From a virus, in the IMG/VR virus record IMGVR_UViG_3300032213_001208, positions 1 through 30,563 of that record: 30,563 nucleotides of DNA; one strand, written 5' to 3'. The notes below the pieces were generated by a model. That model worked only from the letters and a program-made list of their open reading frames with translations. It ran no database searches and was not told the origin of the DNA. Of this stretch, positions 5,316 to 29,989 are shown in pieces. Position 1 is the stretch's first letter, and each line of letters starts with the position of its first letter. Made by a program: the position numbers and the translations under genes.

Positions 5316-5343
5316 AGTTTAACCGTCAGACGGTCGGTGTCAA
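5316..5343 (-). promoter_or_regulatory. Candidate sigma70 promoter with operator-like inverted repeat
   Basis: On the minus strand a perfect TTGACA (-35, 5338-5343) is followed after 16 bases by TAAACT (-10, 5316-5321), which matches TATAAT at four positions. Transcription would start near 5309 and leave a leader of about 35 bases before the ParB-like ATG. The spacer holds a near-perfect 13-base inverted repeat, ACCGTC-T-GACGGT (5322-5334), which could be a repressor site. The promoter overlaps the end of the aminotransferase gene. Not tested. Confidence 0.5.
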
Positions 5344-6333
5344 CAGTGGAATAACAATTTTTGCAACATTCATTAGTTCGTCGCAGATTCGAGCTACATC
5401 ATCACGGGTCATTGTTTCTGAGAGAGGAAGATAGATGATCTCGTGCTGAAGTCGCATTGCGTTGGTAATGCAGTCGGCAGTTCCGTCATCAAACTCAGCT
5501 TGCAGCTTCATCGACTTGAAACCCTGACGGGCAGCGATACCTTTCTCGTTGAGTCTCAGTACAAGTTCGCGTTGTTGGAAGCGATCCATTCCTTTGATAT
5601 GAATGGGATAGATCCACGGGTACCGGCAGACGTGCCGTAACCATTCCAGAGGAAGATGATCGTCGTAATTGTTTCCACGAAAATGTTTTGCAGCGTTGGT
5701 AGTCTCAAAGTTTCTGAGTGATGGAAGAATGAGTTCAGCGTGGGCGTTGCTCATACGAGCATTGACCCCACGAGGAACGTGAAAGTAATCGTGGTTGTCG
5801 TCAAAGCCAAGAGTACGAAGCTGTTTAGCCAGTCGTACGTCTTGAGGGTTCTTGAAAGCGATCATTCCGCCTTCTTCACCGTGGATCGTCTTGTTCTTGT
5901 AGAAGGACCAGCAAGCAGCAAACGTGTTTGGATGAGGCTTGGCACCATGAACTTCAGCCATGTCTTCGATGACCAATGGACCGTACGGCTTACGATGTAA
6001 CGCAGCCACGTCACATAGATTGCCGTAGATATGAACAGCCATGACGATGTGCATCTGATCCGGAACCAAGTCCGTATTTATCTGCAGGATGTCGTCGCAG
6101 TCCACAAAGTGAATATCCAGATCAGCCATAGCAGCAGCACGAGCACAGGCGACCATCGTGTACTCTGGAATAGCAATGCTGGGTCTGACTGCTCCAGTTA
6201 CATCGTCGGTAATCTTGGTACGAGCAACTTCACAGGCAATATGCAAGGCTGCTGTGCCACTGGATACGGCGACAGTATTGGGGTTGCCGATGAACTCTCC
6301 AAACTCTTTCTCTAGTTGCTCGAAGGCTTGCAT
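5326..6333 (-). CDS. PLP-dependent nucleotide-sugar aminotransferase (DegT/DnrJ/EryC1/StrS family)
   Basis: This 335-residue enzyme has the family's cofactor signature: SSGTAALH (about 24-31) for phosphate binding, VIEDMAEVHGA with D124 contacting the pyridine nitrogen, and SFYKNKTIHGEEGG with K148 as the Schiff-base lysine. Such enzymes convert a 4-keto (or 3-keto) nucleotide sugar to the amino sugar using glutamate; perosamine synthase is a well-known member. That fits the GDP-mannose-dehydratase-like SDR upstream. Residue choice for 3- versus 4-amination cannot be decided by eye. The start ATG at 6333 has AGGAGA upstream and follows the cupin stop by 9 bases. It is the last gene of the sugar cluster. 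The family assignment is secure, the substrate is inferred. Confidence 0.85.
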   Translation of the reverse strand: MQAFEQLEKEFGEFIGNPNTVAVSSGTAALHIACEVARTKITDDVTGAVRPSIAIPEYTMVACARAAAMADLDIHFVDCDDILQINTDLVPDQMHIVMAVHIYGNLCDVAALHRKPYGPLVIEDMAEVHGAKPHPNTFAACWSFYKNKTIHGEEGGMIAFKNPQDVRLAKQLRTLGFDDNHDYFHVPRGVNARMSNAHAELILPSLRNFETTNAAKHFRGNNYDDHLPLEWLRHVCRYPWIYPIHIKGMDRFQQRELVLRLNEKGIAARQGFKSMKLQAEFDDGTADCITNAMRLQHEIIYLPLSETMTRDDVARICDELMNVAKIVIPLLTPTV

Positions 6334-27034: not shown

Positions 27035-29989
27035 CTATTTCAAACCACGGATTTCTGTGATGGTTTCGACTTCAGGGTACATCCATGCTCCCATGGCCAT
27101 TAACCCCGCTACGATACCGTCGATCTTGTTGGTAGACTTCGATCTGTCCGGTCTGCGTTGTCCATCTCTGGACTGTACAATAACTACGTTTCCGATCATC
27201 CAATCAAGGACAGGGTGCCCGCCATGCTGGAATTGGTGGTCGATAGCTAACGCTTCCATACGACGGCAAGGTTCATTCATTCCAGCAAAGGACTGGGGGT
27301 AAGCTCTAGCTGGAAATCCGTATTGCTTGAGGGTGGTGTAGATATGATGTGATCCCCAGCGGTCGAAGCATATCTCTCGACAACCGGAGAAATGGGAAAG
27401 GATACCTTTGTTGTTTCCATCCCCGAGCATGGCAGTAATGATTGCGTTCTCATCGACTGTATCCAAAGGGGATGTCGCATTGATGACGCCTGATTCCCAC
27501 CATTGACTGTAAGGTAAGTTCTGCTCCTGTGACCGCTGGTAGATGGAGGTTGCAGGACACCAGCCCCAATGTAGCATAACACCATACTTAGGAAACCACA
27601 AGTTCAGTGATGCAATATCGTTCACTGAAGCATTGTCGAATCCAGCGTAACACTCTTCTTCCTGTAGGAATTCAACCTGACGAATGAACCATGACCAGTA
27701 AAGCTGATAACGACCAATGTACACGTCAACAGAAGTTGCCGTAGTAAATTTCTGGTCGTTAGCAATGTTGCACCAGTATGGATGCTTGGACATCCACTCT
27801 TTGATAGCAACGATTGACAGTAATGGGGTTTCAGGACTAGCGTTTCCGTTGGCCCAGATGTGGGATGGAATCCAAGCTGTTTCGGTTTTGGTACGGACGT
27901 TAAGGTGAAGGCGGAGGAATCGGTTAAGTTCTACAGGGTTGTCTTGAGCATTGCGAACCAGACGTTCAAAGTAGTCTTTGCGGATGGACTTACCGTAGTT
28001 GGGATTGGCTTTCTTCCACACCTTTTCTGAACGGAAGTCATCAGAGAGATCGGCTTCGTAGATCACTGGCAGGAAAGTTGGTTCCCACTGTTTATCACTG
28101 GCAATGTTCTTGGCTTTGTCGTATAGGCTATTGCAGACTGAGGGGCGATCATAGTCAGCGGTGGTCGTGTAAAGTACAAGGGGTTGGGTACGGGCAGCAG
28201 TTCCTGTGAGCATAACGTCAATAAGCTCGCTGTTGGGATGAGCGTGAACTTCATCGACGTACACGAAGTTGGGGGACAGTCCGTGCTTGGTATCTGCAAT
28301 AGACGATAGGACTTTATAGATGGCACCATCGGTATGCTCAAAGGATCTTGTGGACCTGAAGACTCGCTTCTCTCGTAGTCTGGAGATCAGCTTGGGGTTG
28401 TTCTCGATCATGTACTGACAATGGCGGAAGTTGTTGGAGGCTTGCTCCACATCAGCCGCACAGCAATAGTTTTGTGATCGTTTCTCTTTGTCTACGAAGA
28501 ACATGATCAGGGAGATGATCGCCCCGAAGGAGCTTGTGTTGTGCGTAGGAAGCATTGTCTTGCCGAACAAATAAGTACCTGATTCTGAAGACACTGTGAT
28601 GCATCTCATAGGCACTGATGGGCACGGCACAATACTCACGATTTGTACACTTCTGCTTCTGTTTTGTCTAGCAGGAGTCGTACGTTGTCTGTCAAGTTTT
28701 CTGTCAAGTCTGAAGCACGGGTGTGTGTCCTTGAATGCACAAAACTGAATAGTAAAGTACGTACCCCACGTCCCATTCTGATCGTATGACTGCCTTTTTA
28801 TCACTGAGTACTTGATGCCAAGGCTTCCAAGTAGTTCGGACATTCCGTTAACTACTGCTTCATTCTTTTGTGTGAACGATAAAACTTTACCTGCGGAGCA
28901 TATTGTACCATCTGAATCCATCAGACCTTGGAGCAGAGCTAGTCTTTGAGATTTGGACGCTCTCAGATAGGCTGAGGGCACATGTTTATTGTCTAGGAGT
29001 TTGTTCAAACGCAATTGCTTACTGAGACCTTTTACGTGGCAGGACCACGCTGTTCTCCGTCGCACAACGGACGCGAACTCTATGCCTACCGAATTGATGT
29101 CTTGGTCACCTATCGTTATGTGCCCACTTGCAGATGTGCCATCACCCAACCAGTAACCCAACAAGTATGGGTCGATCGGTAAGTCGACTGACTCAGTATC
29201 AATACCATCGTGTAGAGGAAGCTTGAACGTCTTTCCATATGAGCAGTCTACTCCCGCGTCCAGCATCTCTTGTGTGGACCATACGTCTTCATAAAGATCT
29301 GCTCCTACAAGATTTGTAACTGTTTTTGTTCCAGTCTTCCTACTAACTTTTTGCTGTTTACTCCTATGTTTAGGGTGCTGCTTCCTAGAGTGAACGTGCC
29401 ACAAATGGTTAGCACACGCTTTTACTGTTTCCCCGTTGGAAAATGTGACTACGAATGAATCTGGTCGTTCGTCGATCGGATGTACATTCGTAACAACGCA
29501 CTGCTTACCCTCGACATCAAATACAATTTGCCCCTCCTGAATGTCACCCATCGTTGTCCAACCCGTGGGGGTTGGGATAGGGGTGTTCAGGTCGAGCATC
29601 TTACTGTTCTTTCGTGGTACGTAAATAAAGCACTCGCGGTAACGTCGAAGATGTGTGTCTTTGTGCTTCCAGCAGAACAAGTTGGCGTAGATGCTGGACT
29701 GCCATCGTTCAGGAATATATGGAAGTCCTGTCAACTCGCCTTCTGGAAAGCAGCACTCGTTGGTTACGAATGCGATGATACGATCCCATTCAGCACAGTC
29801 AAAGTAATAGTCTTTGGCTGTAACGAACGGATCGTATCCGGGGATGCCTCTTAGAAAGTCGCAGGTATTCAGTTCGATCCATTTCCAGCCAATCATCTTA
29901 TCAAATTCATAGATGGGATCTGGAACTTTGACCTTCTGATTACCTGAGATGTAAGAAGAAGCTGGGTCTATTTCAAGTTCTAGCGACAT
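27035..29989 (-). CDS. terL: Terminase large subunit interrupted by an intein
   Basis: The 984-residue precursor holds a terminase of about 630 residues (1-130 plus 485-984) and a 354-residue intein (131-484). The N-extein ends VPRKNSK and the C-extein begins TSSFG, so the intein splits the P-loop of the ATPase between K130 and T485. Walker B is VYVDE (D579, E580). The RNase H-like nuclease shows YAGFDNASVNDIASL (D785) and a late NKIDGIVAGLMAMG (D957). After splicing, the enzyme would cut concatemers and drive packaging into the capsid. No small subunit is visible to the right. The start ATG at 29989 follows the upstream stop by about 15 bases; no ribosome-binding site is clear. Confidence 0.9.
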   Translation of the reverse strand: MSLELEIDPASSYISGNQKVKVPDPIYEFDKMIGWKWIELNTCDFLRGIPGYDPFVTAKDYYFDCAEWDRIIAFVTNECCFPEGELTGLPYIPERWQSSIYANLFCWKHKDTHLRRYRECFIYVPRKNSKMLDLNTPIPTPTGWTTMGDIQEGQIVFDVEGKQCVVTNVHPIDERPDSFVVTFSNGETVKACANHLWHVHSRKQHPKHRSKQQKVSRKTGTKTVTNLVGADLYEDVWSTQEMLDAGVDCSYGKTFKLPLHDGIDTESVDLPIDPYLLGYWLGDGTSASGHITIGDQDINSVGIEFASVVRRRTAWSCHVKGLSKQLRLNKLLDNKHVPSAYLRASKSQRLALLQGLMDSDGTICSAGKVLSFTQKNEAVVNGMSELLGSLGIKYSVIKRQSYDQNGTWGTYFTIQFCAFKDTHPCFRLDRKLDRQRTTPARQNRSRSVQIVSIVPCPSVPMRCITVSSESGTYLFGKTMLPTHNTSSFGAIISLIMFFVDKEKRSQNYCCAADVEQASNNFRHCQYMIENNPKLISRLREKRVFRSTRSFEHTDGAIYKVLSSIADTKHGLSPNFVYVDEVHAHPNSELIDVMLTGTAARTQPLVLYTTTADYDRPSVCNSLYDKAKNIASDKQWEPTFLPVIYEADLSDDFRSEKVWKKANPNYGKSIRKDYFERLVRNAQDNPVELNRFLRLHLNVRTKTETAWIPSHIWANGNASPETPLLSIVAIKEWMSKHPYWCNIANDQKFTTATSVDVYIGRYQLYWSWFIRQVEFLQEEECYAGFDNASVNDIASLNLWFPKYGVMLHWGWCPATSIYQRSQEQNLPYSQWWESGVINATSPLDTVDENAIITAMLGDGNNKGILSHFSGCREICFDRWGSHHIYTTLKQYGFPARAYPQSFAGMNEPCRRMEALAIDHQFQHGGHPVLDWMIGNVVIVQSRDGQRRPDRSKSTNKIDGIVAGLMAMGAWMYPEVETITEIRGLK
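28538..29599 (-). mobile_element. Class 3-type intein with LAGLIDADG homing endonuclease in terL
   Basis: The splicing domains show block A (LDLNTPIPTPTGW), block B with G186...H195-L-W197, block F with C463 (MRCITV) and block G ending PTHN with T485 as the +1 residue. The first intein residue is M131, not Cys or Ser. The W, C and T positions (B:12, F:4, G:5) match the WCT signature of class 3 inteins, in which the block F cysteine replaces the missing N-terminal nucleophile. The endonuclease has two LAGLIDADG helices, LLGYWLGDG (276-284) and LLQGLMDSDG (352-361), with both catalytic aspartates kept, and an NKHVPSAYLRAS block between. No stop or frame break occurs, so it looks active and mobile. 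Confidence 0.85.

Follow-up and report, generated by a model that had tools for sequence, protein, structure and literature searches.

Class 3 inteins are defined by the WCT signature together with a non-nucleophilic first residue (PMC3196547, PMC5222942). The closest systems of solved structure are mycobacterial class 3 DnaB inteins, namely Msm DnaBi1 of M. smegmatis (6bs8) and Mch DnaB1 (6rix, 6riy). The intein described here shares with them the HINT fold, WCT, the His at B:10 and the terminal His-Asn, and its splicing domain is 34-37% identical to theirs in a structural alignment. These mini-inteins have Ala1, Cys48, Asp at B:7 and Val at F:2. The present intein instead has Met1, Ser48, Cys62 at B:7 and Met331 at F:2, and it contains a homing endonuclease. 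In M. smegmatis DnaBi1, Cys48 lies outside the conserved blocks and, on oxidation, is joined to the catalytic Cys118 by a disulfide; its replacement by A, S, T, M, E, D or H led each time to a loss of splicing (PMC6195587).

According to the AceL NrdHF paper, position B:7 of class 3 inteins has no conserved residue; Gly, Asp and the Ser of the AceL NrdHF intein have been functionally characterised, and this Ser contacts the N-scissile bond (PMC7891396). A 2025 paper gives block B of class 3 as DxxH (PMC12245125). The AceL NrdHF intein (PMC7891396, 6zgq), for which class 3 chemistry was demonstrated, also departs from the usual residue set; it differs from the present intein in being split and in its Ala1, its Ser at B:7 and the Met replacing Trp at B:12.

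In terminase large subunits (TerL), the site between Lys and Thr of the Walker A motif (K|T) is TerL1-a, a classic site reported in mycobacteriophages, and by this published site description the TerL1-a inteins have the same insertion point as the one studied here (PMC5050341). Splicing was reported there for five terminase inteins inserted elsewhere (PMC5050341). The Baka gp6 intein (L583), reported as splicing in the same work, has Gly at B:7. The TerL intein of phage Big3 (L585), with Ser at B:7 and without Cys48, is presumably related to the Bethlehem TerL1-c intein, also reported there as splicing.

An intein in the P-loop of a phage terminase

The window, i.e. the whole stretch of 30,563 nucleotides analysed (IMG/VR record IMGVR_UViG_3300032213_001208), carries on its minus strand a terL open reading frame (29989..27035) coding for a precursor of 984 aa with no internal stop. 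The flanks of the insert correspond to the Walker A ATPase and the nuclease domain of a phage TerL: they match Pfam PF03354 (TerL_ATPase, 1.4e-19), PF20441 (TerL_nuclease, 3e-21) and phrog_9 (5e-121). The N-extein (29600..29989, minus strand like all intein and extein features below) comprises TerL residues 1-130 and ends with PRKNSK, the first part of Walker A. The C-extein (27035..28537) comprises residues 485-984 and the stop; its first residue, Thr+1 (residue 485, 28535..28537), belongs to the second half of the motif. Portal, head protease and capsid genes come after terL in the window, and an aminotransferase-like phage gene (phrog_3139, 5326-6333) lies downstream of the structural genes.

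The insert, of 354 aa (28538..29599, TerL residues 131-484), starts with MLDLNTPIPTPTGWTTMGD, ends with VPMRCITVSSESGTYLFGKTMLPTHN followed by Thr485, and splits the P-loop exactly between Lys130 and Thr485. A sequence-only reading of this DNA had proposed these coordinates, which indeed delimit exactly 354 codons, from Met1 to Asn354. The residues it numbered (K130, Cys192, W197, C463, T482 and T485) are each found at that place in the translation.

A search of viral contigs with the C-extein alone as query returned 77 loci. In at least nine of the contigs (L405-L411, L415 and L430) the same site has no insert and PRKNSK continues directly into TSSFG, with a C-extein protein 98-100% identical to that of the window; the C-flank DNA of the intein-free alleles is 90-94% identical to it. 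These K|T alleles confirm the claimed position between K130 and T485. Therefore both intein boundaries are right, and the insert is no chance resemblance. At the same site L422-L424 carry an intein beginning with Leu. Among close TerL relatives, some have the insert and others lack it.

At 29600-29611 the Walker A motif reads KNSK-T and not xxGK-T. The inteinless alleles share this reading, which makes the Ser a native feature of the TerL group.

The only other contig found with an identical intein, IMG/VR 3300034198_007479 (L040), matches the window with 99.99% identity along 10,533 bases, and both stop at the same base (window 30563, L040 10533). This second intein may not be independent of the first because of that identity over 10.5 kb and the shared end, which may be a real end or a common assembly break. 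In two inteinless TerL relatives (L414:949-1563, also L416) a gene for a 204-aa HNH endonuclease (phrog_374, 1e-51), missing from the window, lies directly upstream of terL; two different homing-type elements may compete at this locus.

Class 3 signature and predicted fold

Met1 (residue 131, 29597..29599) occupies A:1, which is thus neither Ser, Thr nor Cys, and the boundary that makes it the first residue is fixed by the inteinless alleles. Aligned with 6bs8 and 6rix, the WCT residues are Trp67 (residue 197, 29399..29401) at B:12, Cys333 (residue 463) at F:4 and Thr352 (residue 482) at G:5. The other class 3 residues are also in place, i.e. His65 (residue 195, 29405..29407) at B:10, His353 (residue 483) at G:6, Asn354 (residue 484) at G:7 and Thr+1. 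Cys333, the predicted first nucleophile, and Met331 (F:2) lie in block F (VPMRC, 28601..28615), and Thr352, His353 and Asn354 in block G (LPTHN, 28538..28552). The alignment of C463 with F:4 had been named as a point on which the class 3 reading could fail. It holds: Cys463 is the F:4 cysteine since VPMRC aligns with VPVRC of the class 3 DnaB inteins.

A phmmer search of the PDB gave four matches, all inteins, namely 6bs8 (E 6e-16), 6rix, 6riy and gp41-1; the first three are the class 3 DnaB inteins of mycobacteria. The AlphaFold model of the intein (53 sequences) has a mean pLDDT of 89.9. Its splicing domain is predicted to adopt the HINT fold, with a Z of 20 and 1.3-1.8 A over 125-130 residues against 6riy, 6rix and 6bs8, and the whole-intein model resembles PI-SceI (Z 27). 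Foldseek agrees with these structural matches, and the endonuclease-bearing fold is also like I-DmoI. Both LAGLIDADG motifs of a homing endonuclease are present with their acidic residues, LLGYWLGDG (29138..29164, Asp153) and LLQGLMDSDG (28907..28936, Asp230), the second within a match to Pfam LAGLIDADG_3 (PF14528, 1e-10). The intein groups with class 3 TerL inteins in a tree that had no class 1 rows. The signature, the nearest solved relatives and the predicted fold thus support the earlier assignment to class 3 by WCT and a non-nucleophilic start, and the insert would be, in outline, an ordinary class 3 intein.

An additional cysteine, Cys326 (28622-28624), is found seven residues upstream of the catalytic one and recurs in other inteins with Cys at B:7 (L323, L336, L391, L299 and L393). 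It is possibly a second redox partner.

Conservation of the terminase and alternative readings

Compared with the intein-free alleles, the C-extein differs by 80-145 synonymous changes and only 5.5-13.5 nonsynonymous ones (dN/dS 0.012-0.022). For the N-extein, in alleles where it is complete, the counts are 21-33 and 2-6 respectively. It can be argued that splicing works because TerL is intact beside the insert and differs almost only synonymously from the empty alleles, with the caveat that a low dN/dS says little on splicing if the intein arrived very recently.

The intein could nevertheless be decayed or very slow, i.e. keep the class 3 signature and splice poorly, the phage getting by with little TerL or with the TerL of a co-infecting inteinless relative. 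The residue in the column of Cys48, essential by mutation in M. smegmatis DnaBi1 (PMC6195587), is here Ser48 (residue 178, 29456..29458), and a class 3-like pseudogene, Arth_1007 of Arthrobacter, is a precedent for decay (PMC3196547). But all signature and catalytic residues are intact, including the His at B:10 and the Cys at F:4 that the Arthrobacter pseudogene has lost. Moreover the reading frame is unbroken over 984 codons, the TerL protein is nearly unchanged relative to the empty alleles, and W, C, T, H and N are kept in scores of relatives that share its residue set. We consider such a decay improbable. By analogy with DnaBi1, where changes of Cys48, Ser included, abolished splicing, Ser48 may count against activity, though natural class 3 inteins without Cys48 are common.

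A class 2 route, with Thr+1 attacking the Lys130-Met1 bond directly and Cys333 dispensable, would also suit an intein devoid of a nucleophile at position 1. This seems very improbable: class 2, whose motifs are otherwise class 1-like, is known only from KlbA and lacks the WCT present here (PMC3196547), and the Cys at F:4 is obligate in the tested class 3 inteins, even with a natural Cys+1 (PMC5222942).

Residue 1 varies among related inteins

The sequence-only reading had seen Met1 as the special point of this intein. This is not supported in that form: a non-nucleophilic A:1 is part of the class definition and Met1 occurs in at least 22 sampled inteins, a recurrence that rules out a rare oddity. 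The pattern M-L-x-L-x-T-P-x-P-T-x-x-G-W-T-T-M-G-[DE] was found in 11 viral contigs. It yielded about six different inteins besides that of the window, all located after the Lys of a P-loop; in each of them B:7 is Cys, F:2 is Met and Cys48 is missing.

At the same TerL K|T site, inteins of environmental contigs begin with Met (L323 and L340), Leu (L296), Ala (L336) or Gln (L391). They are inserted in the same TerL type and likewise combine Cys at B:7 with Met at F:2 and lack Cys48; the identity to the window intein is 61% for L296, 48% for L323 and 43% for L340. That Met1 is kept as a start codon, for translation of a free homing endonuclease from inside terL, is hardly credible: the GGN AAR codons of the P-loop do place GG shortly before the ATG in Met1 relatives, but inteins at the same sites begin with Ala, Gln, Leu, Lys or Arg instead, so that Met1 is not kept, and no clear ribosome-binding site appears in ccacgaaagaacagtaag before this ATG.

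Three positions vary together with B:7 in class 3 inteins

Cys62 (residue 192, 29414..29416) occupies B:7. The sequence-only reading mentioned it in a side remark, as replacing a usual Thr. The residue was correct but underrated, as it marks an active-site subtype; and Thr is usual in class 1, while the usual residue of class 3 is Asp (202 of 307 aligned inteins, among the matches listed).

The pattern F..G..[IV].AC..H[LQ]W, which is blind to residue 1, gave at least 119 contigs with about 100 ORFs, nearly all of them inteins. The alignment comprises 307 class 3 inteins; since the samples were chosen by motif, among the matches listed, the proportions below are not frequencies in nature. Among the matches listed, W, C, H and N are invariant, and G:5 is Thr in 305 of the 306 scorable class 3 relatives.

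Residue 1 of the 95 inteins with Cys at B:7 (CxxH) was called Ala 28 times, Met 24, Gln 20, Leu 14, Arg 3, Val 3, Lys 2 and Gly 1, among the matches listed; Met1 is counted as at least 22 of the 95, one call (L325) being misaligned and another (L303) uncertain. The 202 inteins with Asp at B:7 (DxxH) have Ala (177), Pro (18), Gly (5), Ser (1) or Leu (1), and never Met, again among the matches listed. Thus, in this alignment of 307 and among the matches listed, Met1 is found only with Cys at B:7. Two other positions also separate the two types among the matches listed. Cys48 is kept in 4/95 CxxH inteins vs 199/202 DxxH inteins, and F:2 is Met in 72/95 of the former vs Val or Thr in 201/202 of the latter. 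In a second sample, selected by blocks F and G alone (52 new inteins), three had Met1, all with Met at F:2 and no Cys48, and B:7 was Cys in three.

CxxH inteins also occur in cultured phages: the TerL intein of Rhodobacter phage RcKickapoo (Arg1, ACAEHLW, LMRC) and the intein of Klebsiella phage KP13-7 (Leu1, ACEDHLW). The T4-like TerL site harbours both types, K|M, K|Q or K|K with CxxH and K|A with DxxH, with up to 50% identity between types.

The linkage between B:7, Cys48 and F:2 is real as an association. Fisher tests give very small p values on the sequence samples, where descent is ignored. In a tree of 127 inteins built from 112 columns, the four trait columns being omitted, CxxH needs 10 changes, of which the starred branches force at least three; the AU test on this tree does not reject a single CxxH clade (p 0.18). 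Among independent pairs, limited to five starred ones, the linked change of Cys48 with B:7 or F:2 is not significant (p ~0.25), and no pair is contrary for Cys48. We hypothesise that changes at 48, B:7 and F:2 compensate each other.

The TerL intein of Acidovorax phage ACF1 (L293, junction ~460) has Cys1 together with W, C and T at B:12, F:4 and G:5 (TGK|CLDVNTP, ADADHLW, RPVRC, PTHN|T). Judged by these motifs, it is possibly a class 1/class 3 hybrid.

Discussion

In all likelihood the class 3 intein of the window is mobile and able to splice, has a LAGLIDADG homing endonuclease and interrupts the Walker A motif of a phage TerL between its Lys and Thr; we infer its chemistry, the homing and the role of Cys62. 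Cys333 (F:4), aided by His65 (B:10) and Thr352 (G:5), would attack the Lys130-Met1 bond and take the N-extein as a thioester branch. Thr+1 would then receive the N-extein as an ester, the cyclisation of Asn354, assisted by His353, would release the intein, and an acyl shift would give the intact ...RKNSKTSSFG... The packaging ATPase would be active only after splicing, in which Met1 would play no chemical part. Other inteins have at the position of Cys62 a Thr, Ser or Asp that strains or contacts the N-scissile bond, and Cys62 may take this supporting role. The endonuclease, with both motif acids kept, would cut empty terL alleles and so spread the insert.

More tentatively, and with the odds against it in our opinion, CxxH inteins might be a functionally distinct subtype. 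The loss of Cys48, the change of Asp to Cys at B:7 and that of Val to Met at F:2 would form a compensating set, and residue 1 would be freed for a long side chain (Met, Gln, Leu, Lys or Arg). There would be a second thiol at the N-scissile bond, Cys62 helping the first acyl transfer or pairing with Cys333 as an oxidation-sensitive switch that replaces Cys48. No splicing test of a CxxH class 3 intein turned up in our literature search, which did not cover the class 3 survey of Tori and Perler (2011). The combination of Cys at B:7, no Cys48 and Met at F:2 marks a widespread variant active site that seems experimentally untried.

This natural set contrasts with the DxxH of the 2025 paper and with the Gly, Asp and Ser at B:7 of the 2020 structural paper. 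Cys48, called non-conserved yet unmutable in M. smegmatis DnaBi1, is missing from most of the CxxH inteins sampled. CxxH inteins thus provide ready test sequences for the roles of Cys48 and B:7 and for the freedom of residue 1, which matters for split-intein tools. Site-matched CxxH/DxxH pairs are available at the T4-like TerL site, and the near-identical TerL genes with and without the window intein are material for homing assays. The insertion site is of a known kind and Met1 is not remarkable by itself; the variant active site with Cys at B:7 is the notable part.
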